NCBI RefSeq assembly: GCF_004168365.1
Contig: NZ_CP035704.1
Coordinates: 868,001-932,000, forward strand
Direction: 5' to 3'
Length of the DNA stretch: 64,000 bases
DNA from: Pseudolysobacter antarcticus
Lineage (GTDB): Bacteria; Pseudomonadota; Gammaproteobacteria; Xanthomonadales; Rhodanobacteraceae
Shown here: piece by piece, positions 18,583 to 40,668 of the stretch
Position numbering within the stretch: position 1 is the stretch's first letter
How the letters are laid out: each line of letters begins with the position of its first letter
Notes under the pieces: generated by a model
Seen by the model: only the letters and a program-made list of their open reading frames with translations
Told to the model about the DNA's origin: nothing
Databases searched by the model: none
Translations under genes and position numbers: made by a program

Positions 18583-18612
18583 GGCAGAAACCGGATACAA
18601 CGAAGAGACGTG

Positions 18613-19657: not shown

Positions 19658-19792
19658 GCGAGCATTTATGCGATTGTTCTGCTGCGTATTCTTGGCAAAA
19701 CGATCACACTTGAATGCGTTGGCGCGGTTCGCCAAGCAATCGTCGCGCCCTTGAAAGCACAGTATTAAACCCAAACTGGTTTGCTTTGGGCG

Positions 19793-19850: not shown

Positions 19851-19887
19851 CGTATTACCCATTCCCTTTCGTCACCTTTGGTTTCCC

Positions 19888-22605
<2,718 letters not shown>

Positions 22606-25263: not shown

Positions 25264-26529
25264 TTACATCGTTGCGGCGAGTTTGAAAATCGGCAGATAC
25301 ATACCGACCACGATACTGCCGACAACCACGCCGATAATCATCATGATGAACGGCTCAAGCAGAGTGCTCAAGGTATCGACCGCGTTATTGACCTCTTGCT
25401 CATAGAATTCGGCGATCTTGAAGAGCATGGTGTCGAGTGCGCCCGATTCCTCGCCAATCGAGACCATCTGGACCACCATGTTCGGGAAAAGATTGGTCTG
25501 CCGCATCGAGAGTTGCAAGGAATGACCTACGGATACGTCTTCGCGTACTCGCTCGGTCGCTTGCGCGTAGACGATGCTGCCGGTTGCGCCGCCAACAGCG
25601 CTGAGTGCTTCAACCAGCGGAACGCCGGCTCTGAATGTGACGCCAAGAGTACGGGCAAATCGCGCGATTGCTGATTGATGCAGGATTTTGCCGATGACCG
25701 GAATTTTCAGCATGACGCGATCAATCAAGTGGGCGAAAGCGGGCGAGCGATTTTTCAGCATGACCAAACCGACAATCGAGCCGATCACCACAGCTAGCAC
25801 CAACCACCAGTAGGCGATCAGAAAATCCGAGCAATTTACCAGCATCAAAGTAAACGCCGGAAGATCAGAGCCCGCTGCTTTGAAAACGGTTTGAAATGTA
25901 GGCAGCACAAATATCAACAAGACTGCAGCAACCAAAAACGCCACCGCCAAAACGATCGCAGGATAAAAAAGCGCCTTCTTGATCTTGGCCTTTATGGTTT
26001 CGAGATTTTCCTTGTACGTGGCGACCGTATCCAATACCGAATCGAGCACACCAGCGGCTTCGCCCGCACCTACTAAGTTGCGATAAAGCTCATCGAATTG
26101 CACCGGATATTTGGCCAGCGATTCGGTCAACGACGAGCCACCCTCGATTGATGTCTTGACATCGATCAACATGTTTTTCATGCGAGGATTGTCCTGGCCA
26201 CTAGCCACAATCTCGAAGGCTTGCACCATCGGAATGCCGGCCGCCATCATCGTTGCCAGCTGACGACTGAAGACCGCAATTTCACGCGCAGTAACCGTTT
26301 TTCCGGCAGCGCCAAACAGCGGTTTACTCTTCGGTTTGATGGAGGTGACGTTGATACCTTGGCGACGTAGCTCCGCCTTGACCATCGTTATCGATTTACC
26401 TACATGGTCGCCCTTGAGCTTGACCCCGCGCTTGTCAGTTCCTACCCATTGAAACGGCAGCATCTGATTGACCTGCGCTCGCGCAGCGCCGGTTGTTTTT
26501 CCGGCTTTGATTGCGGCTACTGTTGCCAT
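25264..26529 (-). CDS. pilC: PilC, type IV pilus inner-membrane platform protein
   Basis: An inner-membrane protein that works with the PilB and PilT ATPases to insert and remove pilins at the fibre base. It has 421 residues with two GspF/PilC domains (about 90-215 and 290-415), each with the family pattern of amphipathic helices and membrane segments. FSRQLATMMAAGIPMVQAFEIV and FARTLGVTFRAGVPLVEALSAVGGA are the two repeated motifs. Three bases separate it from pilB. Confidence 0.95.
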   Translation of the reverse strand: MATVAAIKAGKTTGAARAQVNQMLPFQWVGTDKRGVKLKGDHVGKSITMVKAELRRQGINVTSIKPKSKPLFGAAGKTVTAREIAVFSRQLATMMAAGIPMVQAFEIVASGQDNPRMKNMLIDVKTSIEGGSSLTESLAKYPVQFDELYRNLVGAGEAAGVLDSVLDTVATYKENLETIKAKIKKALFYPAIVLAVAFLVAAVLLIFVLPTFQTVFKAAGSDLPAFTLMLVNCSDFLIAYWWLVLAVVIGSIVGLVMLKNRSPAFAHLIDRVMLKIPVIGKILHQSAIARFARTLGVTFRAGVPLVEALSAVGGATGSIVYAQATERVREDVSVGHSLQLSMRQTNLFPNMVVQMVSIGEESGALDTMLFKIAEFYEQEVNNAVDTLSTLLEPFIMMIIGVVVGSIVVGMYLPIFKLAATM

Positions 26530-26532
26530 GGC

Positions 26533-28263
26533 TTAATCCTTGGTGACGCGGTTGATTTCGGTGAGGCTCGACAAACCGTTTTTCAATTTGAGCAATGCAG
26601 ACTGGCGTAGATCACGAATCCCTTCGGAGCGAGCTTGGTTGGCGATTTGCGCCGCGCCACCGCCCTCAAGGATGATTTGTCCGATCGACTCGGTGATCGG
26701 CATCACCTGGTAGACACCAACGCGCCCCTTGAACCCTTCATTGCAGGAAGAGCAACCCAAGGCATCGTAAAGATGCAGATGCGGAATTTCTTCCGCGGTA
26801 AAACCTTCCTTGAGCAAGGCTGCTTCGGGTAGCGTGAACGGTTGTTTGCAATCGTGCAAACGTCGCATCAAACGCTGTGCGATAACCAGTGTTACCGAAG
26901 AAGTGATGTTGTAAGGCGCTATGCCCATATTCATCAAACGTGCAATGGTTTGCGGCGCATCGTTGGTATGCAGGGTGGACAACACCATGTGGCCGGTTTG
27001 CGCTGCCTTGATGGCGATCTCCGCCGTTTCAAGATCGCGAATTTCGCCGACCATGATCACGTCGGGATCCTGGCGCAAGAACGAGCGCAGTGCGGTAGAA
27101 AAGGTCATGCCGCGCTTGAGATTGAACTGTACCTGGTTGATGCCGCTAAGGCGTATTTCAACAGGGTCTTCGACGGTCGAGATATTGCGCCCTTCGGTAT
27201 TCAGTATGTTCAGCGCAGTGTACAGCGATACGGTCTTGCCGGAACCCGTCGGGCCTGTGACCAGCACCATGCCATACGGCTTGTCGATGGCGTTGAGGAA
27301 CAACTCTTTCTGATCCTCCTCATAACCGAGCTTGTCGATACCGAGTTTGGCCGCCGAGGCATCCAGAATACGCAGAACCGCTTTTTCCCCGAACAAGGTC
27401 GGGCAGGTGCTGACACGAAAATCGATGGCCTTGGTTTTTGATAGGTTGAGTTTGATACGACCATCTTGCGGCACACGTTTCTCGGCGATATCGAGCCCGG
27501 ACATCACCTTGATGCGAGAGCTGATGCGCGGGCTCATCTTTATCGGCGGTGCGGCCATGTTGCGCAGAATGCCATCCATGCGAAAACGCACACGGTAGGT
27601 GTTTTCGTATGGCTCGAAATGAATATCGGATGCGCCGCGTTTGATCGCATCGATCAGCACTTTGTTGATGAAGCGTACTACCGGCGCATCGTCGGTACCG
27701 GTTGCATCAACGCCAGAGCTTCCCGCCTCGCCATCGTCGCTGGTGTCACCAAGCTCGAGATTCTCCAGGCCCTCTGAGTCTTCCAATCCATCCATGATCG
27801 GACCAGCTTGGTTCATCGCCTGGTCGATGGCGCGATCCAGTAAATCCTGTTGTACCAGAATCGGCTCAACCGCGAGATTCGCCTGGAACTTGATCTCATC
27901 CAGCACACGCTGATGGGTGGGATCGGAAATGCCCACAAACAACCGATTGCCACGCTTGAACAGCGGCAAAGCCTTGTGCTGGGTGATGGTTTTTTCGCTG
28001 ACCAGCTTGATCGGAGCCTGACTCAGATCAAGTGCACTGAGATCAAACAGCGGCAGTCCAAACTCCACCGAACTTGCCAGCGCCATTTTTGCATCGCTGA
28101 TCAGGGCGTGCTCGACCAGATAGCTCGCCAACGGCGTTTTGAGCCGCGTGCTCGCTTCAATAGCTTTGCGGATATCCACATCGGTGACGGTGCCTTCTGC
28201 CACCAGCCTGCGAGCGATGCCGTTAAGACCCGCCAATGCCATTGGGTTCATTTGCGTTGCCAT
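26533..28263 (-). CDS. pilB: PilB, type IV pilus assembly ATPase
   Basis: The cytoplasmic hexameric ATPase that powers pilus extension. It has 576 residues from ATG 28263, which has a GGGGAA ribosome site; the open frame reaches 28422 without support. The N-terminal MshEN-type domain is followed by Walker A GPTGSGKT at 337-344, the Asp box and the His box (TGHMVLSTLHTNDAPQT). A zinc-binding region has HDC and CSSC. It heads the pilBCD-coaE set. A partial sigma-54 -24 element lies about 135 bases upstream. Confidence 0.95.
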   Translation of the reverse strand: MATQMNPMALAGLNGIARRLVAEGTVTDVDIRKAIEASTRLKTPLASYLVEHALISDAKMALASSVEFGLPLFDLSALDLSQAPIKLVSEKTITQHKALPLFKRGNRLFVGISDPTHQRVLDEIKFQANLAVEPILVQQDLLDRAIDQAMNQAGPIMDGLEDSEGLENLELGDTSDDGEAGSSGVDATGTDDAPVVRFINKVLIDAIKRGASDIHFEPYENTYRVRFRMDGILRNMAAPPIKMSPRISSRIKVMSGLDIAEKRVPQDGRIKLNLSKTKAIDFRVSTCPTLFGEKAVLRILDASAAKLGIDKLGYEEDQKELFLNAIDKPYGMVLVTGPTGSGKTVSLYTALNILNTEGRNISTVEDPVEIRLSGINQVQFNLKRGMTFSTALRSFLRQDPDVIMVGEIRDLETAEIAIKAAQTGHMVLSTLHTNDAPQTIARLMNMGIAPYNITSSVTLVIAQRLMRRLHDCKQPFTLPEAALLKEGFTAEEIPHLHLYDALGCSSCNEGFKGRVGVYQVMPITESIGQIILEGGGAAQIANQARSEGIRDLRQSALLKLKNGLSSLTEINRVTKD

Positions 28264-28441
28264 AATTCCCCACGCTTCAATCCAGATCAAATGTACCGCA
28301 AAAGGGGCAGTGAATGAACTACCATTTGCAACGGAACCAATAATTTGCGACAACATCCACAACTTGGCCTCACAATACATACGCACGATCCAAGCCCGTG
28401 CCACACTAAACCGAGTCGCCAAGCCGCATCCTGGGGGAACC

Positions 28442-29296
28442 TTGATCAGTATAATTTTGCCCGCGAAGAACGAAGCCGCGGCACTTGCCGGCGTGTTGCC
28501 GCGATTGCGCGCAGCCTATCCAGACGCAGATATCGTGCTGGTAGACGACGGCTCCAGCGATGAAACGCGCGCGGTTAGTCTGGCCAACGGCGCGCGCGTT
28601 TTTTCACATCCCTACTCTATGGGCAACGGCGCTGCCATCAAGCGTGGCGCGCGTGAAGCGCGAGGAGATACCTTGGTCTTCATGGATGCGGATGGCCAGC
28701 ATGAACCTGAAACTATTGCGCGTTTGTTGTCGAAGCTGGATGAAGGCTACGACATGGTGGTCGGCGCGCGGGCTTGGTCGGGCCAGGCTGGCGCCGCGCG
28801 CGGTTTTGCGAACGCGTTTTACAACTGGCTGGCGACGCGCATGACTGGCCACAAAGTCATGGATCTCACCTCGGGGTTGCGGGCTGTGCGCGCCGACAAA
28901 TTCCGCGAATTTCTGCACTTGTTGCCGAACGGATTTTCATATCCAACCACCATTACGATGGCATTCTTTCGTAGCGCCTACGCGGTGGCGTATGAGCCAG
29001 TTCCCGTGCAAAAGCGCATTGGCAAAAGCCATCTGCGCCCGATTCGCGACGGAATCCGTTTTCTGCTGATCATCTTCAAGATCGCCACGCTATATTCACC
29101 GCTGAAGTTGTTTGTACCAGTGAGCGTCGTGTTTTTCCTGCTGGGCCTCGGACACTACACATATACCTTTTTTATCGCTGGTCGATTTACGAATATGAGC
29201 GCGCTATTGTTCAGCGCGTCGGTAATCGTGTTCTTGATCGGGCTGGTGTCCGAGCAGATCGCAGCGCTAATTTATAGCAAGACCGGCCGAGGCTAA
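28442..29296 (+). CDS. GT2 family glycosyltransferase (DPM1/ArnC-like)
   Basis: It has 284 residues if translation starts at TTG 28442, preceded by GGGGG at 28433. A GTG at 28310 is an alternative but its ribosome site is too close. The N-terminal domain is a GT-A fold: ISIILPAKNEAAAL, VLVDDGSSDET and FMDADGQHEPE with the DXD. Two membrane segments follow at the C-terminus (KLFVPVSVVFFLLGLGHYTYTFFI, LLFSASVIVFLIGLV). Such enzymes load a sugar onto a polyprenyl phosphate, so this may supply the lipid-linked donor for the island. It is divergent from pilB and starts the plus-strand gene set of the island. Confidence 0.85.
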   Translation: MISIILPAKNEAAALAGVLPRLRAAYPDADIVLVDDGSSDETRAVSLANGARVFSHPYSMGNGAAIKRGAREARGDTLVFMDADGQHEPETIARLLSKLDEGYDMVVGARAWSGQAGAARGFANAFYNWLATRMTGHKVMDLTSGLRAVRADKFREFLHLLPNGFSYPTTITMAFFRSAYAVAYEPVPVQKRIGKSHLRPIRDGIRFLLIIFKIATLYSPLKLFVPVSVVFFLLGLGHYTYTFFIAGRFTNMSALLFSASVIVFLIGLVSEQIAALIYSKTGRG

Positions 29297-29298
29297 GC

Positions 29299-30099
29299 GT
29301 GGGTGTCGAAGTGTTGCGTCGAATTGCACGGTACCTGCGCAAGACACCCTTGCACCCGCAGTGGCTGCTCGGCAACAACAACGCAACCGGTCGCTGGGTG
29401 GCTGATGTTGCGCGGGGCCGTATTCTCGACATAGGTTGCGCAGACCGCTGGATAGAGCGGCGGCTACCGGCAGGAAGCGATTATATCGGCCTGGATTACC
29501 TCATCACCGGCAAACATATGTATGGAGCAAAACCACATTTGTATGCAGATGCAAGCCAGCTGCCGCTGACTAGCTCATCAGTCGATACAGTTGTATTGCT
29601 TGAAGTAATGGAGCATCTCCGGCGGCCCCGCGAAGCGCTAGAGGAAGTCATGCGTGTACTGCGCCCCGATGGACGACTGCTCTTGTCCATGCCTTTCCTC
29701 TACCCCGTGCATGACGCGCCCTACGATTATCAACGTCTCACGATCCATGGTTTGATTCGTGATATCGAGGAGGTCGGTTTGCATGTAGAGGAGCTGACCC
29801 CTACTTTGGGCTCGGCGGAGACGGGCGGTTTAATCGCATGTCTTGCCATGGGCGGCATGGCGGAGCTGGCGTTGCAGCGACGCAGCTTGTCGTGCGTGCT
29901 CATTCCGTTGTTTTTGTTGGCTATTCCCGTTGTCAACGTTTTTGCGTGGGCTGGTGGTAGGCTGTTGCCTTCATGGAGCGCAATAACGGCGGGATATCGT
30001 GTTGTGGCAAGCAATTGCACGTGTGGCGAGCAGAATTGCGGGCTACTTCCAGACGGCATCAGACCGGCGACATCGAGTAGTGAGGTTTCGATTCCATGA
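29299..30099 (+). CDS. class I SAM-dependent methyltransferase
   Basis: It has 266 residues from a GTG start two bases after the previous stop. Motif I is ILDIGCADRW (residues 42-51); LLEVMEHLRRPREALEEVMRVLRPDGRLLLSMPF is the Methyltransf_11 core. A hydrophobic stretch (about residues 185-205) suggests membrane association. The substrate is unknown; the context suggests a glycan or a lipid-linked sugar. The stop overlaps the next methyltransferase by ATGA. Base composition drops in this part of the window. Confidence 0.8.
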   Translation: MGVEVLRRIARYLRKTPLHPQWLLGNNNATGRWVADVARGRILDIGCADRWIERRLPAGSDYIGLDYLITGKHMYGAKPHLYADASQLPLTSSSVDTVVLLEVMEHLRRPREALEEVMRVLRPDGRLLLSMPFLYPVHDAPYDYQRLTIHGLIRDIEEVGLHVEELTPTLGSAETGGLIACLAMGGMAELALQRRSLSCVLIPLFLLAIPVVNVFAWAGGRLLPSWSAITAGYRVVASNCTCGEQNCGLLPDGIRPATSSSEVSIP

Positions 30100-30839
30100 T
30101 TCGTGGTTATCAGCGTGATTTTTCACTTGCTTATGAATCGATGAACGCGGTGGATGATCGCCAGCGCAAGGCCGCGACCATGCTTGCAGTATTGTGCGAA
30201 GCGCTGGGCGACAAGATCGGCAGCGCCAGGTTACTTAATCTCGGCTGTTCGACTGGCATAATCGACGAGTATCTCGCGGGTCACGTCGCGGCCGTGACTG
30301 GGGTGGACATCGATGAGCCGGCTATCGCGCTTGCAAGCTCGCGCCGCACTGCGCCGAATGTCGAGTTTCTTCTAGACGATGCCATGCGCCTGTCGTTCGC
30401 GGATGCCAGTTTCGAAATCGTGATCTGCTCGCAGGTCTACGAGCATGTACCCGATCCGGTGAAAATGATGGGTGAAATCCACCGCGTGCTTCGTCCGGGA
30501 GGTGTGTGTTATTTCGCCGCGACGAATCGCTGGGCGGTCGTAGAGAAACACCACAGGCTGCCATTTTTATCCTGGTTGCCACCGGCGCTGGCTGATCGCT
30601 ACATCCGGTTGTTTCGTCGCGGCGATGCCTACTACGAGCGGCATCTGGGTTATCAGCCGCTATTGAATCTGGTGTCGCAATTCCGGGTGGATGACTACAC
30701 CGGGAAGATACTTGCCGCGCCAGATAGCTATGCCGCAGCCTACATGTTCAGAGGTCAGTTGAAGCCGTTGTTTGCAAGAACGATGTTCAAATATCTTCGG
30801 GCGTTATTTCCAGGATACATCTGGCTGCTACGAAAGTAG
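30096..30839 (+). CDS. class I SAM-dependent methyltransferase
   Basis: It has 247 residues. The SAM motif is LLNLGCSTG (residues 46-54), followed by VTGVDIDEPAIALA and SQVYEHVPDPVKMMGEIHRVLRPGG. The C-terminal part (WLPPALADRYIRLFRRGDAYYERH) resembles methyltransferases of polysaccharide clusters. It overlaps the previous gene by four bases, so both are made from one message. The substrate is unknown. Confidence 0.8.
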   Translation: MIRGYQRDFSLAYESMNAVDDRQRKAATMLAVLCEALGDKIGSARLLNLGCSTGIIDEYLAGHVAAVTGVDIDEPAIALASSRRTAPNVEFLLDDAMRLSFADASFEIVICSQVYEHVPDPVKMMGEIHRVLRPGGVCYFAATNRWAVVEKHHRLPFLSWLPPALADRYIRLFRRGDAYYERHLGYQPLLNLVSQFRVDDYTGKILAAPDSYAAAYMFRGQLKPLFARTMFKYLRALFPGYIWLLRK

Positions 30840-30885
30840 TGCGCGTTGTACGGTTGGCCACGCGAGCGACATACGAGCAGATCAA

Positions 30886-31839
30886 ATGACAGAGGATTTT
30901 GTATCAGCGGATCGCTCAAGCTCAAGCTTGGTTTGGAAATTCGCCGCTGGTATCGTGACGATAGCCTCGCTGGTGTGGGTGGCCTGGTTACTGGTCAAGG
31001 TCTGGCCCGATATTGTCGAGCACGGTACACAGATACTTCTTGTGCCATTGTTAATTGGTTTTGCATTATCACTCGTAGCGTCATATCTCACCTTCGAGGC
31101 TTTCGCCACGTTGGTTCGAATTCTCGGCATTTCGCGCATGCCACGTCGTGAACTCGCGCATCTGCATTTTACCGCGCAACTCTTGAAACATCTGCCGGGC
31201 CGAGTATGGGGGGTTGGCTATCAGTGGGCAGCGGGGAGTGCTGCCGGTTCGTTGGGCGATTGGCTGTGGGTCAATCTGGCGCATATGCTACTAGCCACTT
31301 TTTTTGCGCTTTGGAGTTCATCGCTCGCACTGGGGTTTTCGCATGGACTGAAATGGGGGGCTCTCACTGCAGTAATCGGAATGATGGGCTACGTTGTGGG
31401 GTGGCTGATCGTGTCCTCGCATCGTCTTTCCAGCTGGCTGACGTTGTTGCCTGGCAGATTCGGAAAACTGAGTAGCGGCATATCAGCGACTCTTGAAAAA
31501 GCGCCCGCATCCGCGCGCGTGAAAGTATTTCTTCTTTTCTCGGTCAGCTGGCTTTTCTACTACGCATCCTGGTTTATGAATGGGATGGCGTATCCGCCGC
31601 TTGGCCCGAATGCAGCAATGCAACTCTGTGCGTATTACATGCTTGCGTGGTTTGTGGGCTATCTATCGCTGTTGACGCCGTCCGGGCTCGGGGTGCGAGA
31701 ATTGGTTTTTGCTTGGCTAGCGAAGGATTTCCCCGGTGATGCGGTTGCGATCATGGCTCTCGTCGGGAGGGTCGGTTCGCTGGCAGTCGATTTGGTGTTA
31801 GGGCTGGCGTTTGCGCCATTTGTGCCACGCAAATTGTGA
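30886..31839 (+). CDS. lysylphosphatidylglycerol synthase TM-region/flippase-like membrane protein
   Basis: It has 317 residues with about eight membrane segments. Its pattern is that of the LPG_synthase_TM (UPF0104) family: LLKHLPGRVWGVGYQWAAG near the middle and LTPSGLGVRELVFAWL near the C-terminus. There is no C-terminal aminoacyl-transferase domain. Free-standing members sit in glycan clusters, and some are proposed to act in lipid or lipid-linked sugar transfer across the membrane; that role is inferred here. ATG 30886 is chosen over the longer frame. GC is low locally: a hand count of 31021-31080 gives 25 of 60 bases. Confidence 0.78.
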   Translation: MTEDFVSADRSSSSLVWKFAAGIVTIASLVWVAWLLVKVWPDIVEHGTQILLVPLLIGFALSLVASYLTFEAFATLVRILGISRMPRRELAHLHFTAQLLKHLPGRVWGVGYQWAAGSAAGSLGDWLWVNLAHMLLATFFALWSSSLALGFSHGLKWGALTAVIGMMGYVVGWLIVSSHRLSSWLTLLPGRFGKLSSGISATLEKAPASARVKVFLLFSVSWLFYYASWFMNGMAYPPLGPNAAMQLCAYYMLAWFVGYLSLLTPSGLGVRELVFAWLAKDFPGDAVAIMALVGRVGSLAVDLVLGLAFAPFVPRKL

Positions 31840-31933
31840 TCTGGCCAATCAGTAGGCGCCTCTTGCGGAAACCCTGCGCAGTGCTTACGCGCGTGATGAA
31901 GGCTTGTCGGCACGGATGATTTACACGATGACT

Positions 31934-32872
31934 TTAGCCCGGGACACGGCATCGGAAAAAAAGATGCGAGGGCGAAAATCGCATTCCGATCCACGGAACA
32001 ACTGCTACGACGTAGGCTGCGACTCGCAGTGGCGGCGCTAAAAACTGCATTGATCTCGACCAAAATTTTGCTCGGCGCGAAATCAGACTGCGGAGTTTTC
32101 CTACTATCTGAAAATAGGAAAGTGCGCCAATCCGAGTTATGGATACGTCTTCAAATCCGGCGCGTTCGAGCAGATGCTTCAGAGGGCGTGTAGCGAACCA
32201 CAAGAAATGATGCGGCGGAAAATCGCCGTCGCTCAGCTTTCGATCGAGTCGGGCCAGAAAGCGATCCCGATTCGGTACGCTGCCCGCAATCAAGCAACAT
32301 GGATTGCCGAGACTGGTGACTTGTGCGAGAAAATTTTGGGGCGAGTCCTGATGCTCCAATACCTCGAAAAAAGTAATTAGATCGAAGCGCTGACCTCGTT
32401 CTTGGCAGGCGCGAGTATAATCTTCAAGAGTCATGGCAACGGCTTTGTCGAGCCCAAATTTTCCTCGGGCTACTTGTATGCTTTTCTGATCGAGGTCAAT
32501 TCCGTTGGGTTCGAAACCCGCCTCAGCGAGGCGGCTTAATACGGCTCCGTCACCGCAACCGATATCCAGCGCGGCACCTACATTTTTTGGTAGCGCACGA
32601 AATAGAGGCTCAGCCCATCGGGGGAAAGGGCGTGTGCCGGAATGGTAATCCTCATACGCTTCGAACCCCTCACTTTCGTAGACGCTCGGATCCGCTTTCA
32701 ACGGCCACCAGAACAGCATTTGGCACGCAGGGCAACTATATAGCGTGTAAATTTCGCGATTGTGAGTCGCGTGGTGCTGACACAGCGGTGCAAATGTCTG
32801 TGCCTGTCTCGCGCAAGTCGCGCAATGCACTATCAGTTCCGCTGGTGTTTCCGAAGGCATAACCATTCCCAT
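31934..32872 (-). CDS. SAM-dependent methyltransferase with an N-terminal zinc-ribbon-like region
   Basis: It has 312 residues; starts at 32866 or 32860 are also possible. The N-terminus has cysteine/histidine pairs C17-x2-C20, C31 with H33/H34, and C47-x2-C50, resembling the metal-binding head of sugar C-methyltransferase-type proteins. The SAM motif is LDIGCGDG (102-109), followed by GIDLDQKSIQVA and FFEVLEHQDSP. The C-terminal domain ends in a hydrophobic stretch. It overlaps the end of the epimerase gene upstream, so the two are probably co-transcribed on the minus strand. The substrate is unknown. Confidence 0.8.
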   Translation of the reverse strand: MGMVMPSETPAELIVHCATCARQAQTFAPLCQHHATHNREIYTLYSCPACQMLFWWPLKADPSVYESEGFEAYEDYHSGTRPFPRWAEPLFRALPKNVGAALDIGCGDGAVLSRLAEAGFEPNGIDLDQKSIQVARGKFGLDKAVAMTLEDYTRACQERGQRFDLITFFEVLEHQDSPQNFLAQVTSLGNPCCLIAGSVPNRDRFLARLDRKLSDGDFPPHHFLWFATRPLKHLLERAGFEDVSITRIGALSYFQIVGKLRSLISRRAKFWSRSMQFLAPPLRVAAYVVAVVPWIGMRFSPSHLFFRCRVPG

Positions 32873-33777
32873 GTTTTTTTGATGCCTTCACGCAGGCTGG
32901 TTGTAAGCGTCCAATCGAAGCACTGCTGCATTTTTTGCGTGTCGAGAACGATACGCTGAACGTCGATTGTTCTGGTCGATTCATAGTGTACTGAAAGTGT
33001 ATCTGCGCACACCTCTTCGATAATGTTTTTTAGATCATTGAGGCTGTGCCCGACACCGGAACCCAAATTGAAGATGCCCGATGCATCCTTGTCGCCAAGC
33101 ACGCATTCTATTGCCGATACGACATCGTCGATATAGATGAAATCCCGAATTACCGAACCGTCACCCCAGATCGTCATGGGTGAGTGATCGAGCATGTGTT
33201 GCAACATTGTCCGAATCACACCGAATCCCTGATAGCGTGGTTGGCCGGGACCATAAACGTTGGATGGCCGCAGGATGATGATCGGACTACCGGACGCACG
33301 CTGAAAGCATTGCAGAAAACCTTCGGCCGCGACCTTGCCTGCGCCATAGAATGACAGCGGCTTTAGTTCTGCAGATTCTGAAACCAACTCTTGCTTCGGG
33401 TTTCCATACACCGTGCCCCCGGAAGATATGTAGATAAGCCGTACCTGCGGGTGCTGCTGTAGTTCCTCAAGCAGGCCGAGCATCGGAGCGATGTTGAGGT
33501 TCGCCTCGAGAGAAGGCGACTTGCTGGAAAGGCTCGGTGTAGTGGCCGAAGCCATATGTACAACCGTACTGGATTGCGGAATCAGACGGCGGATCAATTC
33601 GCTATTTTCGATGCCACCACCGTGAACAGTAACTCCATCCGGAGTATTCATGGTGATGCTGCGGGTTAGGACATGGACGTCATATCCGCGGTCACGTAGG
33701 CGTATGCTCAGCGCACGGCCCATGAACCCGGCGCCGCCCAGTAATACTATCCGTCTACTGTTGTTGCTTACGGACAT
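32833..33777 (-). CDS. NAD-dependent nucleotide-sugar epimerase/dehydratase (extended SDR)
   Basis: It has 314 residues. The Rossmann motif GGAGFMG is at residues 14-20. The catalytic Y144-x3-K148 (YGAGK) and the SSG of ISSGGTVYG (118-120) complete the SDR triad. The C-terminal part RPSNVYGPGQ and FIYIDDVVSAI is typical of UDP-glucose 4-epimerase-like enzymes. It would modify an NDP-sugar for the nearby glycosyltransferases; the exact sugar cannot be read from sequence. It overlaps the GT4 gene and the methyltransferase gene on either side. Confidence 0.85.
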   Translation of the reverse strand: MSVSNNSRRIVLLGGAGFMGRALSIRLRDRGYDVHVLTRSITMNTPDGVTVHGGGIENSELIRRLIPQSSTVVHMASATTPSLSSKSPSLEANLNIAPMLGLLEELQQHPQVRLIYISSGGTVYGNPKQELVSESAELKPLSFYGAGKVAAEGFLQCFQRASGSPIIILRPSNVYGPGQPRYQGFGVIRTMLQHMLDHSPMTIWGDGSVIRDFIYIDDVVSAIECVLGDKDASGIFNLGSGVGHSLNDLKNIIEEVCADTLSVHYESTRTIDVQRIVLDTQKMQQCFDWTLTTSLREGIKKTWEWLCLRKHQRN

Positions 33778-34931
33778 GCCGGTATCAGCGTTTGGTATAC
33801 ATCGGCATAACGCTGCGCACAGTTATCCCACGTGCCGATTTCTGTCCGAGCACATAATTTTGCGGCAGCGCCGATTTCTATGTTCATGCTTTTTGCATCC
33901 AGCGCTTCCACGGCCTCTCCGACATCCGCTGCTGCAGCGCAAAGCCAGCCAGTGTGTTTGTGCACGAGCATATCTTCATGCGCGGGAATGCGCGACGCAA
34001 TGATAGGCAGGCCAGCCGCCATGGCTTCAAGCATGACTTGGGGTCGACCTTCGGCATGTTGACTCAATGAAATCAATCCCTTTGCTTGCGCAAACCAGTT
34101 CGAGCACAGCGACTCTGGCGTGGCCGGACCGTGATAGTGCACCCAATCGGGCACGGGCATGGATTGTTGCATCGGGCCGAACAGGTGGAGCTCGCGGTTA
34201 CCATTGTTGAAGAAGGGCTCGCACCAATCGAAAAGCGTACCGATCTTGCCTCGCGTAAGGCGCGATACGCATAGCCACTTGGCAGGATCTGCGGGCTTGC
34301 GCTCGATGTCGAACCAGCGCGGTTCGATGCCGAATGGTACAAAGTGGATGGTCGCCAGATCACCGAACATACGCTGCAAGTGCGGCGCCATCCACTGTGC
34401 GTTGGGACAGATAGCAACCGGTCTCCCGCGAAACACGCGCCTCAACAAGTGCGTCATGCCCGGCAGCTTCAGCAGTTGCATGTCGGTACCAAGCACCGTC
34501 GTCAGCAGAGGAAGGTTGTTATGGGGGAGTACCAGCGTATTTTGCAACCAGTTGACGTGATACACGTCGATGCCTGACTCGCGTCGATACAGGCCGTGCA
34601 ACATGTTAAGCAACTTTAGCGGCGCCGCAAGCCCACGGATGGCGCCGGTTCGCATCAGATGGGCGATGCCGCCAGCCGCCATCAACGTTTTTAACCAATC
34701 TGAATCGGCAGGAGTCGCCGCATACTCGACATTCTGCGGCAGTTCTCCGGGTGGGGACCACAATCGAAGTTTGATATCCGTTCGGCGCGCAAGTGATTCG
34801 ACCAGATGGCGAATAAACAATCCGCGCCAGTCGCCCAGATCTGCCGGATAAGAGGTGCTGGTCATTAAGACACGCAAGGGAATTCCAGGGTTTGGCAAAC
34901 CATTCGCCTCAGCTCGCAAGCAAAATTCCAT
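33768..34931 (-). CDS. GT4 family glycosyltransferase
   Basis: It has up to 387 residues. The listed ATG is at 34931, but the TTG at 34877 (LRVLMTSTSYPADLGDWRG) resembles the usual family start. It has a GT-B fold: an N-terminal acceptor domain and a C-terminal donor domain with LCVSRLTRGKIG and the EX7E region EGRPQVMLEAMAAGLPIIASRIP. It probably transfers a nucleotide-activated sugar to a lipid-linked or protein-linked acceptor. It is the first gene of the minus-strand GT4-epimerase-methyltransferase set. Confidence 0.85.
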   Translation of the reverse strand: MEFCLRAEANGLPNPGIPLRVLMTSTSYPADLGDWRGLFIRHLVESLARRTDIKLRLWSPPGELPQNVEYAATPADSDWLKTLMAAGGIAHLMRTGAIRGLAAPLKLLNMLHGLYRRESGIDVYHVNWLQNTLVLPHNNLPLLTTVLGTDMQLLKLPGMTHLLRRVFRGRPVAICPNAQWMAPHLQRMFGDLATIHFVPFGIEPRWFDIERKPADPAKWLCVSRLTRGKIGTLFDWCEPFFNNGNRELHLFGPMQQSMPVPDWVHYHGPATPESLCSNWFAQAKGLISLSQHAEGRPQVMLEAMAAGLPIIASRIPAHEDMLVHKHTGWLCAAAADVGEAVEALDAKSMNIEIGAAAKLCARTEIGTWDNCAQRYADVYQTLIPACP

Positions 34932-35006
34932 CCCAGCAAACTTGATGGTGTTGATCAGAACGCCGTTGTACGATCTACTGTGTAGGCATGCTTTTCGATA
35001 TCTGAA

Positions 35007-36923
35007 TCAGTTTTGCCCGTGCGATTTTGTATCTGCGGCAGCTTTTTCATTGCGCGCTTGCGCCAGATAGCCACGCAGCTCATCGACGTCGTACTGTTCG
35101 GCGGGCGAATAGCGCGTAACCCGTGCCTGTAGCTCGTCAATAGCATGTTGCGAGACGTCAAGCTTGCCCAAGTTCAACGCGTAATACGCCAGTTCGTGGA
35201 TGGCTTGCAAGCCGCCCGGGTTGTCAGTTGCCGCGTCGGTAAGCATTTGCAGCGCCTTTGTTTCATCCTTGCGGAAGCTTGCGATATGGGCGCGCAGGAC
35301 AAGCATTTTTTCCGCGCGATCGGGCATCCGATTGGTGACGTAGATTTCGCCGAGTGTCGCGAGGAGCGCATCGAAACGATCGACATCCAGCTGCGGACAC
35401 ATCGCATGGGTCACTTGATCGGCGTCGAACAGCAACATGCCGGTCACCATGATGTCTTCCGGTCGGTTTTTGACCATTTCCTCCATGCGTTCCCACTGCA
35501 CTCGGTGGTTGGATACGGTGCAAGCGACATTCAAATCAAGCGTTAATGGCCAGAAGCCGTTGGGTTTGAGTTGCTGTACTTTCCTCACGCCGGCGATAAC
35601 CTTGTCGACGTTTCCGGCGCGAACATCGATATTGATCATTTCATTTTGTGCGCGTGGCGAAAATGGGTGATTTTCGGCCTCGTGATTAATAAAATCGTCC
35701 GGCGTCGACCATTGATGGGCGCGCACCAGCGTGGCCGCCGCCAGGCCAAGAAAGGGTACGGCGAGGCCGAGTCGCGCCACCTTCATCGGCGCATCAAGCA
35801 AGAAGCGTGCGACGTAATAACCGATGGCGAGCATTGGGCCGAACAGCGCGAGGTAATTACGGTGCTCGAATGCAAGTTCCAGCGGTATGACGGTCGACTC
35901 AAGCAACTGTGCGGCCAAGTACCAAAGTATCGCAAATGCGAGCGCCGGGGCGATCCGGCGTACAACAAGCGCAGCTAGTGGCAGAGCGAGGATAGCTGCA
36001 AGTACGATCCAGGCCCACGGATCGTTTGCCTCCCTCGTGGTTATATCGTCGAGATACAGCCCCATGTGCCGGATATCCGGGAATAGAATCGTCCCGAGAT
36101 ACCGGAACACAACAAAGGGTTCCGTCAGCAGCCGTTCGCCGAGCGTAAATTCGCGTGACGCGTAATCCTTCACCAACCACGGCACTGCAACGAGACAACT
36201 CAGGCCGCCGACCAATAGCGGCAGCCAGCCGCAGTAGGCAAACAGCGCACGGGTTCGCTGGTCGCGGCGAATGAAGTGTTGCGAGGGATCGGCGGCAACG
36301 AGGTAGATGACCATCACGAATACCGGAAACAGAATGGCGTTCTCTTTCGAGAAAAGACCTAACCCCACCACCAGCCACACGGCAGCCGCCTGCAAAATTG
36401 CGAGGGGGTTGCCTGTCGCTGTTGTAGGTTTTTCGATGAAGCGCAGAAATGCCAGCAAACCGAGTCCAACGAACAAGGCCGAGAGTTCTGCCATTCGCTG
36501 CACGACGTACAAAACGGCGCTGACCTGGATCGGATGCAAGGCCCACAGCGCAGCAATAAAAAGCGCGGCAAAGTCACGTCGTCGCGACAGATAGTCCGGA
36601 TATAACAGCGCCAGCAGATGCACCGCCACGCGCCAGAAAACCAGCGTAACGAGCCAGTGCAGTATTAGGTTTACCACCTTGTAACTGAGGGCGGCGACGC
36701 CGAAGTATCGATAATTCAGATAAAAGCTCAGGTTCGCGATCGGTCGGTGCAGCAGGCCGGTGCCGTTCTGGCTGATTGCATGCCAGATCTCATTGAATGT
36801 ACCCGTGGCCGCACGCGCCGCTTCGAGGTTCGATAGATCATCGAGCTGGAAAGGACCATACAGCCCCGGCACGAATGGCAGCATGCACAGGCCAAGGAAC
36901 AGCGCGGCAATGGTTTTTTTCAT
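35007..36923 (-). CDS. TMTC-like GT-C membrane glycosyltransferase with a TPR-like tail, next to pilA
   Basis: It has 638 residues from ATG 36923 (an AGGAG lies rather far upstream). About ten membrane segments fill residues 5-420. The first periplasmic loop has the acidic pair D28-D29 (GPFQLDDLSNLE) and then LLHRPIANLSFYLNYRYFG, features of TMTC/PMT-type GT-C transferases that use polyprenyl-phosphate sugars. The last 200 residues are soluble and helical, TPR-like. In Pseudomonas, the gene directly downstream of certain pilA alleles (tfpW) is a GT-C enzyme that glycosylates pilin. The same position here suggests a pilin glycosyltransferase, an inference not proven by sequence identity. Confidence 0.7.
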   Translation of the reverse strand: MKKTIAALFLGLCMLPFVPGLYGPFQLDDLSNLEAARAATGTFNEIWHAISQNGTGLLHRPIANLSFYLNYRYFGVAALSYKVVNLILHWLVTLVFWRVAVHLLALLYPDYLSRRRDFAALFIAALWALHPIQVSAVLYVVQRMAELSALFVGLGLLAFLRFIEKPTTATGNPLAILQAAAVWLVVGLGLFSKENAILFPVFVMVIYLVAADPSQHFIRRDQRTRALFAYCGWLPLLVGGLSCLVAVPWLVKDYASREFTLGERLLTEPFVVFRYLGTILFPDIRHMGLYLDDITTREANDPWAWIVLAAILALPLAALVVRRIAPALAFAILWYLAAQLLESTVIPLELAFEHRNYLALFGPMLAIGYYVARFLLDAPMKVARLGLAVPFLGLAAATLVRAHQWSTPDDFINHEAENHPFSPRAQNEMINIDVRAGNVDKVIAGVRKVQQLKPNGFWPLTLDLNVACTVSNHRVQWERMEEMVKNRPEDIMVTGMLLFDADQVTHAMCPQLDVDRFDALLATLGEIYVTNRMPDRAEKMLVLRAHIASFRKDETKALQMLTDAATDNPGGLQAIHELAYYALNLGKLDVSQHAIDELQARVTRYSPAEQYDVDELRGYLAQARNEKAAADTKSHGQN

Positions 36924-37298
36924 GTGCGAGGCGAAACTCCTAGGAGGCAGGATTTGTCTTCCGATCATAACGATTCCCGACCTAGCTCGCTAAGGGCAGG
37001 CGGGCCTTGTCGCGCGACGTGCGCAATCTTGATCGTGCGTACGGTGGCGGCAGCCAGAACCGCGGCAGACCAGTGTTTAATGGCGCAGAAAAAAAGCGAA
37101 CTATGTACGGATCGATGCCGCGCCGAAACCATTGCTTCCGCCTGAATCAAGGCAGTACCAAAAGTCGAACTTTGCGTTACGAATACAGCAACGCTGCGCA
37201 CGCCTTCGTTATCTACTCCGGCACGGATATCTCGGTTGCCTAACTGAGGTTATCGGAAGCAAATCACGATGGCCACACCGCAGTCCGTTATTGCAGGC
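36924..37298. other. non-coding gap between the GT-C gene and the pilA terminator
   Basis: About 375 bases. Two overlapping 78-codon open frames on opposite strands (36965-37201 minus, 37007-37243 plus) look like chance frames: neither has a ribosome site or a recognisable product. The gap may hold the promoter of the GT-C gene, but I found no convincing hexamers. Confidence 0.4.
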
Positions 37299-37323
37299 AA
37301 AAAAACCCCGGCTTGAGCCGGGG
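37299..37323 (-). terminator. strong rho-independent terminator of pilA
   Basis: On the minus strand CCCCGGC (37323-37317) pairs with GCCGGGG (37312-37306) around a 4-base loop, followed by seven T residues (37305-37299). It begins 25 bases after the pilA stop. It should insulate the highly expressed pilin message from the GT-C gene downstream. Confidence 0.92.
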
Positions 37324-37348
37324 CTATAGCACAACTTGTAAAGGAGTA

Positions 37349-37786
37349 TTAGCGGCAGCTAGCTGGCGAGTACTTAACCTGGGTGCCGGTCGTGCTGCAG
37401 ACCCACTTGACCGAATTGGAAATGGTCGTACCCGTAAGATTGATGACGGTGACGCCAGCGGTGACGCCGGTGCTGGCTGAGTTCGGAACCGTAAGCAGGG
37501 CCTTCGCTGCAGCGAAGGTATACGTGACCGGACCACACATGCGCGACGCAGCACCGGTGCCGAAGGAAGCGAGCGCGGCCGGGAAATGCGTGTTGCTGAT
37601 GACGAATTCCGATACGCCGGTCTTCAGCGGGGAAAGATTGTTCAGGCATTCTGTGGTACGCGCACGGATCGTATAGTCACCGTATGCCGGGATGGCGATA
37701 GCGAGCAGGATGCCGATGATCGCGATAACGATCATCAATTCGATCAGGGTAAAACCCTTCTGGATATTGGTTTTGAAGTTATTCAT
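37349..37786 (-). CDS. pilA: PilA, major type IV pilin
   Basis: It has 145 residues. The leader [11 protein letters not shown] is cleaved by PilD before F12, giving a 134-residue pilin with the hydrophobic N-terminal helix [20 protein letters not shown] and the essential Glu at mature position 5. Four cysteines follow: C48, one in RMCGPV, and a pair near the end (KWVCSTT and PASCR) that could close a C-terminal D-loop. Serine and threonine are abundant in the C-terminal third and could be glycosylated. It is flanked upstream by a tfpX/Z gene and downstream by a GT-C gene, with a sigma-54 promoter and a strong terminator. Confidence 0.95.
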
Positions 37787-37907
37787 GGGGAGGTTCCTTG
37801 GTGAAAGTTAGCTAACTTTGCAACGATTATTGGTGAACTTCGACTTTGACTAGCAGATCCGGTACCTGACTTGCTGGTCGGCAACGTCCGATGCTCGTGG
37901 TGGCTTG

Positions 37908-37923
37908 AGCAGGATTCGTGCCA
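37908..37923 (-). promoter_or_regulatory. sigma-54 promoter of pilA
   Basis: The minus strand reads TGGCACGAATCCTGCT. It matches the sigma-54 consensus TGGCACG-N4-TTGCW at every defined base but one. The GG at -24 and GC at -12 are in register. Transcription would start near 37897, giving a leader of about 110 bases. PilR, encoded 1.3 kb upstream, is the expected activator. Confidence 0.88.
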
Positions 37924-37959
37924 CAAACGCGTCGAGTTTCTGTCGCTCGCGCAATTTCG

Positions 37960-38100
37960 TGACGCGTCAGAGCTTTTTTCTTTGGATCGACTGTCCTGAT
38001 GTGTGGCATTTTCCGCTTCATGCCATTTCTTTAACTGCGGCAAATCGGAGGCAGCGTTTGATGTTTTCTGGGTGTGACGCGCATGGTCACAATGTGACGC
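37960..38100 (-). promoter_or_regulatory. possible activator sites upstream of the pilA promoter
   Basis: TGACGCGTCA (37960-37969) is a 10-bp palindrome about 60 bases upstream of the -24 element. Further up, TGTGACGC occurs twice, 20 bases apart (38073-38080 and 38093-38100), and GTCACAATGTGAC (38086-38098) is an inverted repeat. Regular spacing at this distance suits enhancer sites for PilR or another activator. The binding protein is not known. The remainder of 37787-38209 shows no gene. Confidence 0.4.
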
Positions 38101-38209
38101 ATGGCGGCAATACTTGCCCTTCGGACTTAATGCTGCCGGCTTGCGAGTGGTTTCCGAGTGCTTTATGAGTTGCATCCTTAACTTGCTTGATCAGCGGTAG
38201 AACGTGCGC

Positions 38210-38956
38210 TTACCAAGGATCTACCGAAATCGCCTGAATTACCTTGCCGGTACGGCTGGAAATCAACATGCTCAGATCATGCTTGCGCGCAATGAGCGGC
38301 AGATAAGCGAGATCATTCTCATCAATCTGATTTTGCCTCGCCACTTCGTCGATCTGATTCGCGGCTTCGGGGTGCTTCGCGCGCAGGGTATCCAGTTTTC
38401 TGGAGTGAGCGACAATTGCCTGAGTTTGCTGTTCATACGGAACATAAAATTCTGGCATATGTTCGATATCTTCTTTCGCCACGGCGGATGACCACAACAG
38501 ATCAGACTTCTTCTGCGCGTCGGTCGGCAGCGCCGCACCCACCAGTTTCGGGCCAGACCATGATAGTTGCTGGAATTCCGGCTGCTTGCCTTTTTGCAGT
38601 GCTGCATCGTCCAGCTGATTTGCAAACACCAAGGTGAATCGATCGATCGCAGCAACCAGGAAAACCGGTCGGGACTGCAGCACAATCGACAAACCGTAGG
38701 CCAGCGAGCAACATTGCACCAAGGCGATAAACGCAAGGTCGAATTTCAGGCCGGGTTTGCCGCTGCGAAAAATAATCAGCGTGATCAGTGGCCCCAAGGT
38801 AACGTCGACCCCGACCAGCAGCAGCATGAGTTCGTCGGCTCCGGCGGCGGAAAAGAACGGGGGCGGGTACCAGATTTTCAGGAACACAAACCCGATGATC
38901 AGCGCGATCGCCAAGCTGATAAAAAGATGAATGGCTGCGGCTTTCCAGCGAGACAT
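38210..38956 (-). CDS. TfpX/TfpZ family type IV pilin accessory protein
   Basis: It has 248 residues. The N-terminal 90 residues carry about three membrane helices with the family signature IWYPPPFF (residues 28-35) and LLLVGVDVTLGPLITLIIF (46-63). The rest is a soluble domain, probably periplasmic. In Pseudomonas, TfpX/TfpZ proteins are encoded beside particular pilA alleles and affect pilus assembly or retraction balance. Here the gene sits directly upstream of pilA on the same strand, behind its own sigma-70-like promoter and an AAGAGGAG ribosome site. It supports assignment of this pilin to an accessory-dependent allele group. Confidence 0.88.
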   Translation of the reverse strand: MSRWKAAAIHLFISLAIALIIGFVFLKIWYPPPFFSAAGADELMLLLVGVDVTLGPLITLIIFRSGKPGLKFDLAFIALVQCCSLAYGLSIVLQSRPVFLVAAIDRFTLVFANQLDDAALQKGKQPEFQQLSWSGPKLVGAALPTDAQKKSDLLWSSAVAKEDIEHMPEFYVPYEQQTQAIVAHSRKLDTLRAKHPEAANQIDEVARQNQIDENDLAYLPLIARKHDLSMLISSRTGKVIQAISVDPW

Positions 38957-39017
38957 CGCTATCGACTCCTCTTGATATATGGCTTGTATCGGTGCTGGTT
39001 GAAATTAGTCGGACGAA

Positions 39018-39046
39018 AATTTAGCCAAACTTGCTCAGCTTTGCAA
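39018..39046 (-). promoter_or_regulatory. sigma-70-like promoter of the tfpX/Z gene
   Basis: On the minus strand TTGCAA (39046-39041) and TAAATT (39023-39018) are separated by 17 bases, about 60 bases before the start codon and just beyond the pilR stop. Each hexamer matches the consensus at four or more positions. Confidence 0.5.
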
Positions 39047-39060
39047 GAGTGAGACTGGCG

Positions 39061-40452
39061 TTAATCGATGCCGAGTTTCTTGAGCTTGTAGCGCAGTGCG
39101 CGAAAGGTAATTCCGAGCTTTTTCGCGGTGGCGGTTTTGTTGTAGCGGCTTTCGAGCAGGGCTTTTTCGATAGTTTCGCGCTCGATCTGGCTGATGTATT
39201 CGTCCAGATGCACGGGGCCATTGCTGTTATCGTCGTCGTCCTCATCTTCCGGATCGACGGAAGCGGCTGACGTGCTCATGTTTGCATTCGGTGCAGTGCG
39301 CGATGCCTGCGCAGCAAGGCGCAGATCACCCGCTTCGATCACGCCGTTTTCGCACAGGGCAATCGCGCGTTCGAGGATATTTTCAAGCTCGCGCACGTTG
39401 CCCGGGAAATCGTAGGCATTCAACGCGGCGAGCGCCGCAGGCGTAAGTTTTGGCTGAGCATCACTGCCGCCGGCCAGACGTTCGAGTACGCGCGCAGCCA
39501 GCAATGGCACATCTTCGCGGCGCTCGCGCAGCGCGGGCATGTGCAGTTCGATGACGTTGATGCGGTAATACAAATCCTGACGAAACGTATTGTTTGCTAC
39601 CAGCGCTTCGAGGTTTTTGTGGGTGGCGGAAAGGATGCGCACATCGACCGGCACTTCATCGCGGCCGCCGATCGGACGCACTGCTTTTTCCTGGATCACG
39701 CGCAGCAGTTTCACCTGCATATGCAGCGGCAATTCGGCCACCTCGTCGAGGAACAGCGTGCCGCCTTGGGCAACCTTGAACAGGCCGTCCTTGTCGGCGT
39801 GCGCTCCGGTAAAGCTGCCTTTGCGGTGGCCGAAAAATTCGGACTCCATCAGCTCGCTCGGAATCGCGCCGCAGTTCACGGGGACGAATGCAGCGCTCGC
39901 GCGCGGGCCCTGTTCGTGGATCAGGCGCGCGGCCAATTCCTTGCCGACGCCCGACTCTCCGCTGATATAAACCGGCGCCTGGCTGCGCGCGAGTTTGCCG
40001 ATCGTGGCACGAGCAAGTTGCATCGCGGCTGAGTTGCCCAGCAATTTGCTGGCCGCATCAATTACCGGCATACCGCGACGGCTTTCGCCAAGCTTGAGCG
40101 CGGTTTGCACCAGACGACGCAAAATACCGAGATCGACCGGCTTGGAAACAAAGTCGAAAGCGCCGGCCTTGAGCGCCGTCACCGCGGCATCCATATTGCC
40201 ATGCGCGGTGATCATGGCCACGGGTGTGTCGGGGTGCGCGCGGGCGATCAGCTCGACCAGCTCTTGGCCGCTGCCATCCGGCAGGCGCATATCGGTGAGG
40301 CACAAGGCATAGCGCTGCGTGGCGAGTTTCTGCTTGGCATCGGCAACATTGCCGACCGCATCCACCTGCAAGCCCATGCGTGAAAGAGTGATATCCAGCA
40401 GTTCGCGAATATCGCGCTCGTCGTCGATGACCAGTGCGCTAGGCTTGCTCAT
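39061..40452 (-). CDS. pilR: PilR, sigma-54-dependent response regulator for pilin expression
   Basis: It has 463 residues: a receiver domain with acidic D10-D11 and phosphoacceptor D54, a central AAA+ domain with Walker A GESGVGKE and the GSFTGA loop that contacts sigma-54, and a C-terminal Fis-type helix-turn-helix (ETIEKALLESRYNKTATAKKLG). An acidic stretch DPEDEDDDDN precedes the DNA-binding domain. It should activate pilA from the promoter found at 37908-37923. It lies downstream of pilS on the same strand, with 216 bases between. Confidence 0.95.
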   Translation of the reverse strand: MSKPSALVIDDERDIRELLDITLSRMGLQVDAVGNVADAKQKLATQRYALCLTDMRLPDGSGQELVELIARAHPDTPVAMITAHGNMDAAVTALKAGAFDFVSKPVDLGILRRLVQTALKLGESRRGMPVIDAASKLLGNSAAMQLARATIGKLARSQAPVYISGESGVGKELAARLIHEQGPRASAAFVPVNCGAIPSELMESEFFGHRKGSFTGAHADKDGLFKVAQGGTLFLDEVAELPLHMQVKLLRVIQEKAVRPIGGRDEVPVDVRILSATHKNLEALVANNTFRQDLYYRINVIELHMPALRERREDVPLLAARVLERLAGGSDAQPKLTPAALAALNAYDFPGNVRELENILERAIALCENGVIEAGDLRLAAQASRTAPNANMSTSAASVDPEDEDDDDNSNGPVHLDEYISQIERETIEKALLESRYNKTATAKKLGITFRALRYKLKKLGID

Positions 40453-40668
40453 GATTCCATATCAGTCAGGATGATTCACTACGTGAAGCGTAAACCGCTG
40501 CGCGGGCGGAAGCAAAGTTCGCTGCGATCGCATCGGCAATACTCGTGGTCATTTCGCAGGGGCATCGCAATTGTGCGTCAACATCAAGCGCGAATGCGGC
40601 GATAGTCTAACTGATTGGCAGATAAAATCCGCGGCTCGATCGGTCTCAATTCACGTCGGCAAGCTACT

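Follow-up and report, generated by a model that had tools for sequence, protein, structure and literature searches.

A candidate type IV pilin glycosylation cassette with a TPR-bearing GT-C enzyme between pilB and pilR of Pseudolysobacter antarcticus

The 64,000-nucleotide stretch of the Pseudolysobacter antarcticus genome considered here (contig NZ_CP035704.1, positions 868,001 to 932,000; the window) carries an island of ten genes at 28442-38956, between the type IV pilus genes pilB and pilR, that is read from gene linkage and predicted folds as a type IV pilin glycosylation cassette, with a probability of roughly three in four. The left flank is formed by pilB-pilC-pilD-coaE and the right flank by pilR-pilS-sucC. 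Within the island, the forward-strand group GT2-MT1-MT2-flippase converges at about 31839-31934 with the reverse-strand group TfpZ-pilA-GT-C-GT4-epimerase-MT3 (MT, methyltransferase), and all ten glycan and pilus genes listed in an initial annotation, made from the sequence alone, were found where it had placed them (Table 1). The same annotation described this exact gene set beside a pilin as unfamiliar, which is fair, although the set is not unique: locus L057, from another genus, holds the same genes in identical order and orientation (GT2 76% and flippase 53% identical).

The gene of the GT-C enzyme is present as a single copy in the genome, as judged by a genome search. Its GT-C part is unnamed in Pfam and NCBIfam, where 30 homologues gave matches of the TPR type and, beyond these, just a few weak ones that look like chance. 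The AlphaFold2 model (predicted local distance difference test, pLDDT, 91.7; predicted template modelling score, pTM, 0.91) was compared with solved structures by VIA-align, and residues from about 7 to 430 match STT3 (8age; Z 20.7, 4.5 Å over 328 residues), with further matches to ArnT (5f15; Z 17.8), Pmt4 (9i5l; Z 17.2) and PglB (3rce; Z 17.1), each above the Z of about 13 at which the tool cautions for helical models. The remainder of the protein beyond about residue 430 is TPR. A sequence search against solved structures matched the TPR part alone among the best 60 matches listed, and Foldseek ranked mainly TPR chains; it was VIA-align on those chains that revealed the GT-C fold. Nine residues (D43, D44, R75, Q157, R158, K208, E364, R370 and Y372) do not vary among 30 proteins from the family of the window, and the first six are also invariant in 80 of 80 sequences of a second alignment (A2), built from the best 80 of 569 loci returned by a short GT-C peptide pattern search (the named loci); at residues 364-371 part of the conservation seen in A2 was built in by the search pattern, which lay in this stretch. 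Two cysteines of A2, C483 (58/80) and C524 (75/80), may be linked by a disulfide in the periplasm. One class member has a degraded copy of the GT-C gene, interrupted by several in-frame stops (G230:C1:1406735-1407889).

Together with this enzyme, the island encodes, by homology and predicted fold, the GT2 and flippase that would complete a three-component set. Homology searches place GT2 close to ArnC (undecaprenyl-phosphate 4-deoxy-4-formamido-L-arabinose transferase), dolichol-phosphate-mannose (DPM) synthase and sll0501, which is of the GtrB type. The flippase candidate scores below the cut-off of LPG_synthase_TM (PF03706; E 0.0011), and its model is modest (pLDDT 60, built from four sequences); the high fold matches of that model are six MprF structures at Z 14.2-16.1, with the next entry at 6.0. 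The genes lying between GT-C and GT2 are here termed cargo.

Table 1. Features of the pilB-pilR interval (window coordinates; ORF, open reading frame)
Feature	Position	Strand	Basis
pilB, conserved left edge	26533..28266 (ORF extending to 28422; start likely near 28266)	-	BLAST and synteny
GT2, polyprenyl-phosphate glycosyltransferase (AglJ/ArnC/DPM-synthase-like), conserved donor-side edge	28442..29296	+	homology
MT1, S-adenosylmethionine (SAM) methyltransferase, cargo	29299..30099	+	profile match; 63% identity in L057
MT2, SAM methyltransferase, cargo	30096..30839	+	profile match; 68% identity in L057
Flippase-like membrane protein	30886..31839 (ORF 30772-31839; ATG at 30886 the likelier start)	+	predicted fold of MprF flippase domain
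MT3, SAM methyltransferase, cargo	31934..32872	-	profile match; 60% identity in L057
Nucleoside-diphosphate-sugar epimerase/dehydratase, cargo	32833..33777	-	profile match; 67% identity in L057
GT4 glycosyltransferase, cargo	33768..34931	-	profile match; 66% identity in L057
GT-C fold with C-terminal TPR, candidate pilin glycosyltransferase	35007..36968	-	AlphaFold2 model, fold matches, TPR matches
Rho-independent terminator directly after pilA	37304..37325	-	hairpin and T-run
pilA, major type IV pilin, presumed acceptor	37349..37786	-	PF00114, N_methyl
Weak sigma-54-like -24/-12 site upstream of pilA	37909..37923	-	motif scan
TfpX/TfpZ-family pilin accessory protein	38210..38956	-	NF041437, 264 bits against a cut-off of 200
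pilR, conserved right edge	39061..40452	-	BLAST and synteny

The arrangement recurs throughout the family to which the window belongs, sampled here as 197 genomes. Homologues of the GT-C protein occur in 167 (159 after dropping eight weak hits) and an orthologous GT2 in 161 at E <= 1e-60, at 68-77% identity among the matches listed; both are present in 155 genomes, GT2 alone in six, GT-C alone in four and neither in 32, these being raw counts, uncorrected for kinship, in which several genomes without the genes are incomplete. The distance between the two genes was taken in 56 genomes, where 48 carry them on the same contig within 25 kb, seven on separate contigs of drafts and one (G006) 719 kb apart. 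Sixty family loci, one per genome, were mapped from 62 picked among the stronger GT-C matches, and in the typical locus pilA and one to three GT-C genes open the interval, which is closed by GT2, divergent from pilB. A complete GT-C ORF is found in 59 of these loci, 51 of which have a motif-recognised pilin upstream. Two or more GT-C genes, counted by ORF, are present in 47 of the 59; most of these loci (L034-L093) display a tandem GT-C pair, often with two pilin genes, and the window has one of each. A rule of one GT-C gene per pilin was rejected, gene numbers per locus being weakly correlated (rho 0.22, p 0.10, 59 loci). Two more pilin-family genes lie elsewhere in the P. antarcticus genome (G000:C2:2570154-2570471 and 3186463-3186729).

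Beyond the family, the GT-C domain was found at E <= 1e-15 in 73 of 229 genomes sampled across the class, the window's own genome counted, and one locus was fetched for 60 of the 73, stronger hits being taken. A GT-C ORF is present in 57 of these (not L222, L226 or L231), of which 45 have more than 1 kb of upstream sequence. In 34 of the 45 a pilin gene immediately precedes GT-C, whereas the parts of these loci away from GT-C contain two pilins in 261 kb. The last GT-C gene has GT2 no further than 2.5 kb away in 42 of 54 loci. The named loci, whose taxa include Lysobacter, Dyella, Rhodanobacter, Thiorhodococcus, Methylotuvimicrobium, Gallionella, Variovorax and Legionellales, present a similar picture: 77 of the 80 have a GT-C ORF, a pilin is directly upstream in 60 of the 67 with enough upstream sequence, no pilin was recognised more than 3 kb from GT-C in 711 kb, and GT2 is within 12 kb in 44 of 73. 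A phylum sample yielded the domain in 17 of 150 genomes at E <= 1e-40, 11 of them outside the class, and 9 of these 11 have a pilin upstream of GT-C. The three locus samples overlap, since members of the window's family and some of the class-wide loci are found again among the named loci. An arrangement seen throughout the family and even outside the class is more than a matter of chance. Two loci, L055 and L229, are rearranged: pilR and pilS lie past the GT-C genes and point the other way.

The pair of genes is accompanied by the pilus machinery. PilB is present in 52 of 52 genomes carrying both GT-C and GT2 (among 59 examined), in 14 of the 32 genomes lacking both (many of the other 18 are incomplete) and in four of the six GT2-only genomes. 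Of the genomes lacking GT-C and GT2, seven near-complete ones were examined first, three of them without a PilB orthologue and four with one. In the locus of one such genome, L266 (pilR-pilA-pilB), pilA and pilB adjoin with nothing between them, and another, L267, reads tfpZ-pilA-pilA-pilB; L264 holds two pilin-like genes, one methyltransferase-like gene and one unassigned stretch, and L265 stops at a contig edge. The retention of TfpZ in L267 without the sugar module fits a role of this protein in pilus assembly (PMC11841053). L266 and L267 offer a useful reference for judging whether the cassette was acquired or lost.

A terminator behind the pilin gene has been described as a mark of pilin-accessory cassettes (PMC11841053), and the island shows this layout, with an accessory gene (GT-C) directly downstream of pilA and a Rho-independent terminator between them. 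The hairpin and T-run are strong, with 5 of 200 shuffles folding equally well, and the identical test identifies a terminator after 35 of 51 family pilins, compared to 10 of 222 other genes, five of the ten being behind pilC. Terminator-like sites are as numerous in 26000-41000 as in shuffled sequence (18 compared to 18.2), and the pilA terminator tops the list. A sigma-54 promoter ahead of pilA was considered and rejected: one plausible site exists, but the window has 98 such hits where shuffled DNA would give 94, which leaves the site without statistical weight. No sigma-70-like promoter was found in 26000-41000.

The cargo is the variable part of the locus. In 32 family loci that reach GT2, the GT-C-to-GT2 interval spans 4.8-12.0 kb (median 7.8 kb), and 208 mechanically chosen cargo ORFs, six from the window, were grouped at 40% identity into 126 clusters, a number inflated by chance ORFs. 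Pfam matches of 125 cluster representatives, among the 25 families listed of 80, include methyltransferases, GT4, GT2, epimerases, Polysacc_synt (10) and LPG_synthase_TM (3). Whole intervals were then compared by translated alignment, with 40% identity as the minimum for a hit. Of the 29 pairs within a genus (GT2 77-94% identical), 22 had less than 10% of the interval in common and five had half or more; one pair with 94% identical GT2 had zero shared cargo, and three pairs within one genus shared 86-99%. Between genera, mean sharing over 499 pairs is 8%, with 372 below 10%, and yet L087/L093, L070/L082, L036/L037, L063/L089 and window/L057 share 92-99%. MT1 and MT2 are also common to L054 and L057. 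These comparisons support the view that the cargo behaves like an exchanged cartridge, and they do so independently of base composition.

The initial annotation had read low guanine-plus-cytosine (GC) content in part of the island as a pointer to transfer. Its hand counts are exact (25 of 60 at 31021-31080 and 38 of 60 at 5041-5100), and 60-mers with 25 or fewer G+C make up 1.3% of those in the window. The island genes have a GC of 0.52-0.56 compared to 0.584 for the whole window, but core pilC (0.528) and pilB (0.545) are equally low, so the dip is not a mark of the island and recent transfer of the whole island on this ground was rejected. The same conclusion is reached from L057, where the same cargo in the same order has six genes 53-68% identical to those of the window, near the values for pilB (73%) and pilC (69%), and where island GC (0.683) is close to that of its own locus (0.674).

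The divergence of GT-C appears to follow the pilin and not the cargo. The comparison used 30 loci plus the window (31 records, 465 pairs) and took from each the first GT-C and its nearest pilin. Once GT2 and shared cargo are controlled for, GT-C identity and identity in the variable pilin region rise together, with a partial rho of 0.54 (0 of 499 Mantel permutations; 0.56 in a previous version of the test on 32 records), whereas the correlation of GT-C identity with shared cargo, given GT2, is 0.02 (186 of 499 permutations). Mean GT-C identity is indeed higher among the 22 pairs with at least half of the cargo in common (0.46 compared to 0.32), an excess that stems largely from close relatives, and in 10 of these 22 pairs it is no higher than 0.31. 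In the window and L057, for example, the GT-C proteins are 31% identical by BLAST and 26% in the alignment, the median over all pairs being 29%. This covariation is support rather than proof, because the physical closeness of the two genes could contribute to it.

The initial annotation had left the island as one for either pilin glycosylation or a surface glycan; the former is now well supported by linkage and the latter is less likely. The case is built on the adjacency of GT-C and pilin in three overlapping samples, the co-occurrence of GT2, the covariation of GT-C with pilin, the pilin-cassette terminator, the relatives without the cassette in which pilA lies beside pilB, and the constant presence of PilB in pair-bearing genomes. 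In the proposed mechanism, GT2 would load a sugar onto polyprenyl phosphate in the cytoplasm, as its homology to ArnC, DPM synthase and sll0501 suggests, and the cargo enzymes, in this genome the epimerase, GT4 and three methyltransferases, would make, extend or methylate the lipid-linked glycan. The MprF-fold membrane protein would then flip the glycan to the periplasm, where the GT-C-TPR protein, encoded behind an attenuating terminator, would transfer it to PilA, a role suggested by its fold, position and covariation with the pilin, while its TPR domain, presumed to be periplasmic, may help to select the pilin. TfpZ would aid pilus assembly, separate from the sugar module. The locus can thus be envisaged as an acceptor side (pilA and GT-C) and a constant donor-side edge (GT2), with the genes between them forming a replaceable cartridge that would set the glycan. 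In the handful of genera studied so far, pilin glycosylation protects pili against phages (PMC11841053), and replacement of the cartridge would plausibly serve escape from pilus-binding phages.

Several points weigh against this interpretation. A GT4 enzyme beside a DPM-type GT2 would be compatible with more than one glycan length and carrier, the cargo could feed another glycan as well, and the periplasmic location of the TPR domain is itself presumed. GT-C and GT2 are widely separated in G006, two of the six GT2-only genomes are without PilB, and L087/L093 breaks the GT-C/pilin rule, having the same cargo with identities of 0.68 for GT-C and 0.25 for the pilin. Part of the covariation could be produced by the proximity of pilA and GT-C. 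The initial annotation had named an island without pilA as evidence against a pilin role, and class-wide 11 of 45 GT-C loci, a minority, have no recognised adjacent pilin; the acceptor may sometimes differ, or the pilin motif test may have missed some pilins, as it did in L132.

The likeliest alternative, in which the GT-C-TPR protein would act as an O-glycosyltransferase on many periplasmic targets, the pilin included, in the manner of neisserial PglL, overlaps with pilin glycosylation but is in itself unlikely. The STT3/PMT-like predicted fold and the single GT-C copy of this genome are compatible with it, but the enzyme diverges along with its neighbouring pilin, and the frequency of tandem GT-C genes suggests a dedicated acceptor, even if the weak correlation of GT-C and pilin numbers tempers the latter point. 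It is less probable still that the cargo builds lipopolysaccharide or exopolysaccharide and that its position beside pilA is incidental or regulatory: the gene types are common to any glycan locus and the 11 class-wide loci without a recognised pilin are in its favor, whereas the recurrence of pilin adjacency within and beyond the class, PilB in all pair-bearing genomes checked and a GT-C divergence that tracks the pilin instead of the cargo all speak for the pilin. Other glycan loci exist in this genome, since its two Wzy_C genes lie outside the window, although a second glycan locus here would still be compatible with that. Finally, TPR domains are found in pilus assembly proteins and two of 30 homologues weakly match a PilW model (best E 0.0017), but it is very improbable that the protein has given up transferase activity and serves in pilus assembly or as a chaperone, given the invariance of the catalytic-type residues D43, D44, R75, R158, K208 and R370 in 30 of 30 family proteins and the co-occurrence of the gene with GT2.

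Elsewhere in the window, a cluster for division and cell-wall synthesis (dcw) precedes the pil genes at 2898-22605 (ftsI, murE, murF, ftsW, murG, murC, ddl, ftsA, ftsZ and secA; ten ORFs scanned), and the sole above-cut-off MurD match of the genome (327 bits) lies outside the window at G000:C2:1055922-1057211.

Among known systems, the TfpO/PilO/PglL O-oligosaccharyltransferases likewise have a pilin as acceptor, with the TfpO gene beside pilA. These enzymes carry a Wzy_C domain, from which the GT-C-TPR protein differs, as a profile search found Wzy_C (PF04932) in none of the ten island proteins and none of the 30 GT-C homologues. The Pseudomonas TfpW/TfpX group IV cassette, in the available portions of its accounts, shares with the island a GT-C enzyme gene beside pilA, a TfpX-family gene (membership of the island protein in TfpX/TfpZ is indicated by NF041437 above its cut-off), a terminator after the pilin and, between strains, cassette exchange (PMC11841053; PMC12369383). 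TfpW differs in transferring D-arabinofuranose, whose synthesis genes lie elsewhere in the genome (PMC11841053; PMC12369383); no arabinofuranose genes were recognised among the ten island genes, and in Pseudomonas, too, such genes lie elsewhere. Compared by description, the island differs from the TfpW system in bearing variable glycan genes inside the pilin locus and an enzyme with TPR (PMC11841053; PMC12369383). The three-component systems (GtrA/GtrB/Gtr, GT136) are alike in combining a polyprenyl-phosphate transferase, a flippase and a GT-C enzyme, and, as far as the available account describes them, differ from the island in that here a pilin is proposed as acceptor instead of the O-antigen, the flippase candidate has an MprF fold and the replaceable cargo is larger (PMC11127046).

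The eukaryotic TMTC1-4 enzymes also join an N-terminal GT-C part to C-terminal TPR (PMC7801869), an architecture that the island enzyme shares on its predicted fold. By eye, GT-C-TPR appears to have counterparts of several TMTC motifs, namely DD in the first outer loop, RP..SFxLN, KE, and E/R/Y near the last helices, but no evident counterpart of RxD and DW, and the TMTC donor is made by DPM synthase, a relative of the island GT2, according to the available part of the account (PMC7801869). The island enzyme is unlike TMTC in being bacterial and pilin-linked and in lacking a match to TMTC_DUF1736 (PF08409), which was found in 0 of 30 homologues at E <= 0.01; because the Pfam model fails to match, filing the enzyme under TMTC was rejected and the resemblance is one of likeness, not membership. 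Whether TPR-bearing GT-C enzymes constitute a distinct and widespread Pseudomonadota class of pilin glycosyltransferases, a TMTC counterpart in which each enzyme suits its own pilin whatever the glycan, acting with a DPM-type GT2 and an exchangeable cartridge such that pilus chemistry is switched like O-antigen serotype, probably driven by phages, is an evenly balanced question. If true, dedicated pilin glycosyltransferases with exchanged glycan cartridges would extend to a far wider set of bacteria, even though not every GT-C copy adjoins a pilin, and TMTC-type O-glycosylation would gain a model in bacteria, along with a directly testable catalogue of the glycans attached to pilins and of variation in phage receptors. 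Among the papers listed by literature searches that covered few subscription papers, none dealt with pilin enzymes that join GT-C to TPR or connected TMTC to type IV pili. Neither the class and how widely it occurs, nor an evolution that keeps step with the pilin and not with the cargo, was found in print.

Nearer to the window, an account of Xanthomonas vesicatoria mentions in passing two glycosyltransferase genes and an EamA transporter beside the pilin gene in the pilB-pilC interval, and in its available portion names neither a TPR/GT-C family nor an exchangeable cassette (PMC10333488). Exchange of pilA alleles has been described in Xanthomonas vasicola, with no mention of glycan genes in the portion available (PMC4235730). 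Because glycosyltransferases near the X. vesicatoria pilin and the pilin glycosylation cassettes of Pseudomonas are already known, the P. antarcticus locus is best regarded as a variation on a known theme.

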